From NCBI GenBank assembly GCA_003646025.1, contig QNDR01000009.1, forward strand, positions 1-44,750: DNA of 44,750 nucleotides, given 5' to 3'. Within the stretch, counting starts at the first letter, position 1. The number at the start of each line of letters is the position of its first letter. The translations under genes were made by a program, and so were the position numbers. Positions 28,984 through 30,507 of the stretch are shown here, in pieces. The notes below the pieces were generated by a model. The model was not told the DNA's origin. It was given only the letters and a program-made list of their open reading frames with translations, and made no database searches. The stretch is from Candidatus Fermentibacterota bacterium. Its GTDB lineage: Bacteria > Fermentibacterota > Fermentibacteria > Fermentibacterales > JCC-6.

Positions 28984-29580
28984 TCAGAAAGTGGCTTTTA
29001 TAGCTGCCCATGTGTGAGGGGCAAGAGCCATATCGTAGTCGGGAGTGCGTATTTCAGCGCCTTCCGGTGCTGTTATGGTCATGTCGTCCACCCACACGGT
29101 ATCACCGGCTTCAGAATAGGTTCTTACCTGTATAACAAGCCCGGTATGCCCGCCTTCAACTGTCCATGTGTACTCTGCCAGATCCCAGCCGGTACCTGGT
29201 CCGTAATCACTCTGTCCACTTGCGCTGCCTCCGTAGTTGTAGATGTCGCCGGGATCGTCGTTCCATCCACCCCAGATTCTGCATGATGGTGCAGCAGCAG
29301 GCGTTACATCGTATCGCCAGAAAGATGCCGTTACCTGATCACCATCTGAAAGACCCACAACCCAGGCCACGTATGCCTGTGGAGTTCCTGATGCGGCATC
29401 ATCCACAACCTTGAGAGACTGTGAACCTCCGTGAATCGGGTCTGTATCAATTGTACAGATAATGTCGCCATAGTTTCCCAGAATAGTTTGAGTACCTTCC
29501 CAGCCGTATGTTTCAGTGTTTTCTGCAAGAGCCAGCTGCGCCAGCACAAAAAGCAACAGAACAAACAGTACATTCTTCAT
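28984..29580 (-). CDS. Secreted beta-sandwich protein with C-terminal TWAAIKATF motif
   Basis: The 198-residue protein has a clear signal peptide (MKNVLFVLLLFVLAQLALAE). One galactose-binding/CBM-like jelly-roll follows: GGSQSLKVVDD, AYVAWVVGLSDGDQVTASFW, then GWDLAEYTWTVEGGHTGLVIQVRTYSEAGDTVWVDD, the typical edge of such carbohydrate-binding folds. The chain ends HTWAAIKATF, shared with two neighbours. It has its own promoter and is followed by a strong terminator, so it is a single-gene unit. Its function, apart from probable extracellular binding, is unknown. Confidence 0.8.
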   Translation of the reverse strand: MKNVLFVLLLFVLAQLALAENTETYGWEGTQTILGNYGDIICTIDTDPIHGGSQSLKVVDDAASGTPQAYVAWVVGLSDGDQVTASFWRYDVTPAAAPSCRIWGGWNDDPGDIYNYGGSASGQSDYGPGTGWDLAEYTWTVEGGHTGLVIQVRTYSEAGDTVWVDDMTITAPEGAEIRTPDYDMALAPHTWAAIKATF

Positions 29581-29733: not shown

Positions 29734-30507
29734 ATGAAACTAATGGTATTTGTCTTCATCGTGTGTGTCGGCGTCAGTTTTGCGGACTATCAGATAGTCG
29801 CAACTTTTGATGCCCCGGACACGAACATTTCCGGGCTCGGTTTCGGAGATGGTTCTCTGTGGGCTGTGGACGGAGTTACCGAATACGCCTATCAGCTCGA
29901 TCCCTCTACAGGAGCGGTTCAGAATTCCTGGTACTGTGCCAATTCAAGCAGAGTTCCAACCGGCCTCACTTATGCCAACAGTACGGTCTATATCATTATG
30001 ACAACAATGCCCAGCCAGAGCGATTCATACTGCTACAGGTACAACAATTCAGGAAGCTATCAGGGTCAATTTGACCTGGACTGTTGAGGAAGCGATCTCG
30101 ACCGGGAGGTAACCGGTCTCGCAACAGGAAACAGCAAAATTTACGGTGCAGGAGTAGACGCTCAGACCATGAAGGAATGTCTGGAAAAATACAACTATAC
30201 CGGGTCCCTGCTGACCGGCCCCGAGTTCATGGTTGAGCTGGGAATAGACTTCTACGATATTGCCTACAAGGACAACAAGTGGTGGTATGCCTGCAACGAT
30301 ACAGAATTTCCCATTCGTGTTTACAACGGAAGTGGAGCCCTGGTTGAATCAATCAGTTCATCAGTTCTTCCAGCTGCCCACGGTATGACTTTTGACAGCG
30401 AAGGCTATCTCTGGGTGAGCAATATGAACACCGACGAGATATACAAAATTGCTGATGTTTCCGCGCTTTCAAGAGCTACATGGGCATCGATAAAGGCAAC
30501 TTTCTAG
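29734..30507 (+). CDS. Secreted propeller-like protein with an in-frame TGA and C-terminal TWASIKATF motif
   Basis: One frame runs from an ATG with a signal peptide (MKLMVFVFIVCVGVSFA) to a C-terminal RATWASIKATF, interrupted only by TGA at codon 118 (30085-30087, context FDLDC-TGA-GSDLD). Both sides read as one beta-propeller-like protein: GLGFGDGSLWAVDG and PTGLTYANSTVYI before the stop; EVTGLATGNSKIYGAG, FYDIAYKDNKWWYACND and HGMTFDSEGYLWVSN after it. Read through, it has 257 residues. TGA is the normal stop for neighbouring genes, so general recoding is excluded. Either this is a fresh nonsense mutation or the TGA encodes selenocysteine; a SECIS-like hairpin follows at the expected distance. 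If the stop is real, the 3' half is dead. Confidence 0.6.
30085..30118 (+). promoter_or_regulatory. TGA followed by a SECIS-like hairpin
   Basis: After the in-frame TGA come 12 bases, then a perfect 6-bp stem GACCGG/CCGGTC closing a 7-base loop GAGGTAA. Bacterial SECIS elements have a short stem about 11 bases after TGA, with a GGU-type apical loop bound by SelB. The resemblance is visible, but short hairpins also arise by chance. Confidence 0.35.

Follow-up and report, generated by a model that had tools for sequence, protein, structure and literature searches.

A phylum-wide family of predicted exported beta-propeller selenoproteins with a Cys-Sec site in Candidatus Fermentibacterota

The window analysed here, a stretch of 44,750 nucleotides from a genome of Ca. 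Fermentibacterota (2.46 Mb in 136 contigs; designated G000), carries a forward-strand gene whose 257 codons are open except for a single TGA at codon 118 (30085-30087) and which terminates with TAG (Table 1). Translated with U at the TGA, the frame reads MKLMVFVFIVCVGVSFADYQ...FDLDC-U-GSDLDREVTGL...TWASIKATF-stop. The original prediction had described this frame as broken only by the TGA and as beginning with a signal peptide, which is borne out by the translation and by the sequence-based prediction of such a peptide (helix 2-15 in the structural model); its hairpin, with a 6-bp stem 12 nt after the TGA and GGU in the loop, also lies where it had been placed. The spacer (30088-30099) is followed by GACCGG (30100-30105), the loop GAGGTAA (30106-30112) and CCGGTC (30113-30118), with the GGT of the loop (30108-30110) starting 20 nt past the TGA.

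Table 1. Coordinates of the features of the predicted selenoprotein gene (positions in the window)
Feature	Position	Strand	Basis
Predicted exported beta-propeller selenoprotein gene, 257 residues	29734..30507	+	Stop TAG, the single TGA taken as Sec; translation and homologues sharing that TGA
Predicted N-terminal signal peptide MKLMVFVFIVCVGVSFA	29734..29784	+	Sequence; predicted helix 2-15 ahead of the first strand at 19; putative cleavage site
CU motif, Cys117 (TGT) - predicted Sec118 (TGA)	30082..30087	+	Cys at -1 or -3 in all 124 TGA members
Predicted SECIS hairpin, stem GACCGG/CCGGTC, loop GAGGTAA	30100..30118	+	Position kept in 121/121 contexts; covariation
C-terminal tag W-A-S-I-K-A-T-F and stop	30481..30507	+	Common to other proteins of the source genome

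Published criteria for bacterial SECIS elements (bSECIS) are a loop of 3-9 nt, a stem of 4-16 bp, a G in the first two loop positions, a UGA-to-loop distance of 16-37 nt and an MFE <= -7.5 kcal/mol (PMC13188914), and the window hairpin agrees with all of them (loop of 7 nt with G first, stem of 6 bp, spacing of 18 nt, MFE of -15.7 kcal/mol for the 48 nt downstream of the TGA). The hairpin region matched no family in Rfam. Among synonymous recodings of the gene, 22.5% equalled or exceeded this stem length, and the folding z-score was -1.5; taken singly, the window hairpin is thus not clearly beyond chance, and the case for selenocysteine therefore rests on comparison.

G000 itself contains one paralogue (38% identity) whose single in-frame TGA aligns with that of the window gene (...DMCGG-U-GNPVSSVTGL...). 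A search of 42 genomes of the phylum gave matches in every genome, and nearly all strong matches had one in-frame TGA and no more. About 130 matches were retrieved and 132 segments aligned, and the TGA fell into one single alignment column in 124 of the 132 sequences (121 distinct TGA contexts, with at least one gene counted twice as two overlapping loci). All 124 TGA members have a partner cysteine, at -1 (CU) in 72 and at -3 (CxxU) in 52, the latter comprising 47 CGGU, 3 CSGU, 1 CPGU and 1 CDGU, and 118 of them have Gly at +1. The remaining eight sequences are more divergent paralogues with Ser in the TGA column, and these lack both the partner Cys and a hairpin at the conserved spacing; Cys in the Sec column was not found in any of the 132 aligned homologues. 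The alignment of homologues at codon 118, which had been proposed as a check, thus returned TGA, hence predicted Sec, or Ser. One genome that at first seemed an exception (G025) carries a CGGU copy. The sole genome in which no TGA-bearing member was found (G017, 73% complete) also gave no tRNA-Sec, SelA or SelD matches and no SelB above the cut-off.

When about 85,000 species genomes were scanned, 52 loci came up, all in Ca. Fermentibacteria (Sabulitectum, Aegiribacteria, Fermentibacter daniensis, Hyd24-12); the scan used the single peptide pattern DAPDT[NG]I[ST]G, which restricts the out-of-phylum relatives that are detectable, so that the absence of the family beyond Fermentibacteria is only suggestive. 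The genomes identified by name are all MAGs. Tandem pairs of Sec-encoding paralogues were seen on four contigs (G031:C43, G033:C71, G037:C225 and G029:C16) and suggest ongoing duplication in the family. One member (L030, G007:C7:43751-44761) has a second in-frame TGA downstream (FFDIUYMQDD), possibly an error or decay.

The hairpin is conserved together with the TGA. In all 121 distinct contexts the loop contains GG(U/C) (AGU in one), which begins either 17 or 20 nt past the UGA; these two spacings differ by one codon. Among the 47 CGGU members, synonymous identity was 1.0 over the hairpin (codons +4 to +9), compared with 0.25-0.76 at other codons. Across 57 distinct hairpins 92.8% of cells were paired, a percentage somewhat favoured by the anchoring of the hairpin windows on the loop and by the choice of the better-pairing candidate before alignment, and both-side changes occurred in six of the eight pairs. 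The stem covariation score was 0.689 against 0.189 +/- 0.018 in shuffles (reached in 0 of 500), with slid-partner controls at most 0.171; two fixed spacings and compensatory changes are not explained by loop anchoring. When G000 was scanned with the covariance model R1, only the two family members rose above noise, and no further Sec gene did.

Purifying selection acts on both sides of the TGA: where dS was unsaturated, dN/dS downstream was about 0.06-0.14, with similar values upstream, in comparisons of the window gene with orthologues and between orthologue pairs. Being under selection, the downstream frame is presumably translated, and the undamaged state that had been claimed for it holds up to the tag-bearing end.

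The sel genes, which the original prediction had proposed to look for, are all present in G000: a tRNA-Sec (selC; 70.4 bits, anticodon UCA), SelA (491 bits) adjoining SelB (323 bits), and SelD (L263:170-1399 (-)), which has its own in-frame TGA at the selenium site (PCAGUAGK). Among the 42 genomes of the phylum, tRNA-Sec was found in 36, SelA and SelB in 35 each (above the cut-off) and SelD in 35. Most SelD genes of the phylum likewise contain an in-frame TGA (CAGUAGK), and several genomes have two selD genes.

Translation of the selected downstream frame would also be expected if an ordinary amino acid were inserted at UGA 118, or if UGA were reassigned in this organism, with no selenium involved. 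We consider this very improbable. TGA is the commonest stop among the long ORFs of the window (19 of 39) and ends a neighbouring gene just past the common tag, and since it acts as an ordinary stop here the UGA code is not reassigned; a covarying SECIS beside complete Sec machinery, and a Cys always at -1 or -3 of the site, argue against ordinary read-through as well. Slightly less probable still is a true stop at codon 118, with the two halves made as separate polypeptides or with the hairpin regulating termination or coupling: an in-frame ATG at 30169 could serve the second half, but the cut would fall between blades 2 and 3 of a single propeller domain, and TGA, Cys and the hairpin at its 17/20-nt distance are kept together and lost together.

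A lone in-frame stop is the usual sign of a nonsense mutation, a pseudogene or a sequencing error, but the comparative data refute this reading, to which we assign a negligible probability. Its recurrence across about 40 separate genomes, and in paralogues with as little as about 30% identity, excludes a base-call error as the source of the TGA, and purifying selection goes on downstream. The Sec reading of the TGA, as put forward in the original prediction, is strongly supported by the comparative evidence together with the sel genes.

The AlphaFold2 model of the window protein (pLDDT 90.7, pTM 0.87) contains 20 strands, which we interpret as five blades of four strands each, with the N-terminal strand closing the propeller. 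In this model Cys117-Sec118 lies within the 115-128 loop, which connects blade 2 (outer strand) with blade 3 (inner strand). In propellers such an inter-blade loop usually lies on the ligand-binding face, and the topology therefore suggests that the Cys-Sec loop does so too. The family profile matches NHL-type propellers and the designed Pizza propellers, and both profile and fold place the protein among the NHL-like beta-propellers.

The members differ in their C-termini. The T9SS type A sorting domain (TIGR04183) was matched by 23 of 29 representative aligned members, and several other members are lipoprotein-like by sequence. TIGR04183 is absent from the window protein, which has a short WxxIKxxF tag instead. 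The conserved C-terminal tag that had been proposed is real, as WxxIKxxF-stop occurs at 11 places in the source genome and the reversed pattern at none. It takes the form WGxIKxxF-stop, with W-A-x-I-K-A-T-F in the window gene, and also stands at the end of the divergent neighbour at 28984-29580 (-); it may act as a so far undescribed sorting signal that substitutes for the T9SS domain. That neighbour was considered as a second recoded gene and rejected, since its TGA is a real stop that is followed by a terminator-like hairpin. More distant Sec-free propeller proteins end in similar tags (FGSIKALF, FGRIKTVF; L291, L295 and L296). The gene neighbourhood is kept among the Sabulitectum relatives (a MazG-like gene, DUF3160 and the divergent secreted protein), and this comparison showed no conserved gene for a redox partner beside the window gene.

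Taken together, the window gene very probably encodes an exported five-bladed propeller selenoprotein with a Cys-Sec site that belongs to a phylum-wide family, Sec insertion in the cell and the export route being what we infer from these comparisons. The UGA at codon 118 would be decoded as selenocysteine by SelB and tRNA-Sec(UCA), steered by the hairpin just downstream, and the product would be exported and fold as a five-bladed NHL-like beta-propeller, with Cys117-Sec118 on the long loop that links blade 2 to blade 3. Other members of this family, which is multi-copy across Ca. Fermentibacterota, have CU or CxxU at the site and often a T9SS sorting tail. Because the Sec-Cys pairing is invariant in the TGA members and both residues are absent from the non-Sec paralogues, the pair would most likely form a reversible selenylsulfide and serve as an extracytoplasmic thiol/selenol redox site or as a soft-metal-binding site; we lean towards a redox role with moderate confidence.

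Among the prokaryotic selenoproteins characterised so far, thioredoxin-like folds with redox motifs predominate (PMC13188914), and the present family sets Sec on a secreted beta-propeller, in almost every examined genome of a candidate phylum and with repeated duplication. A gene caller that takes TGA as a stop would break up or shorten each of these genes, and annotation databases probably hold fragments only. The CU, CxxU and Ser-type paralogues offer a natural contrast that makes the role of selenium at the cell surface directly testable, and the natural SECIS variants, about 120 in number and with compensatory changes, are well suited to the study of SelB recognition.

No propeller family was found among the 119 families of prokaryotic selenoproteins catalogued in 2026 (PMC13188914), compared by name and domain. 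The window protein had no match in NCBIfam release 20 and no selenoprotein model was among the matches of the 29 members; nor did the family match the selenoprotein models of Pfam. In the literature searched, whose scope left out most subscription journals and all preprints, no paper combined Fermentibacter or Fermentibacteria with selenoprotein or selenocysteine. The secreted propeller family with Cys-Sec or Cys-x-x-Sec thus appears to be undescribed so far. It is likely to be the first beta-propeller selenoprotein family, usually with several Sec genes per genome, and would point to a dedicated extracytoplasmic, selenium-dependent surface chemistry in Fermentibacterota.

With the bacterial selenoproteins as catalogued (119 families and subfamilies, PMC13188914) the family shares the UGA, the SECIS directly downstream, the SelA/SelB/SelD/tRNA-Sec machinery and a CU or CxxU motif; it differs from the catalogue families in that a single site within one family can be either CU or CxxU. 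Vicinal Cys-Sec is also found in the CU-motif selenoproteins SaoL, HgcA, MbdU and KCU-star, several of which are tied by name to metals or organometals (PMC13188914), although the two-residue motif is the sole resemblance and their domain models are others. The best PDB matches of the model are the five-bladed glutaminyl cyclases 2iwa, 3mbr and 3nol (TM-score 0.66-0.72), where the likeness is at the level of the fold only (identity 14-17%). Both sequence profile and fold also match the Pfam NHL, DUF6923 and Vgb_lyase propellers; compared with these propellers, the inter-blade loop here bears Cys-Sec, whereas the non-Sec paralogues of the same phylum are without it.
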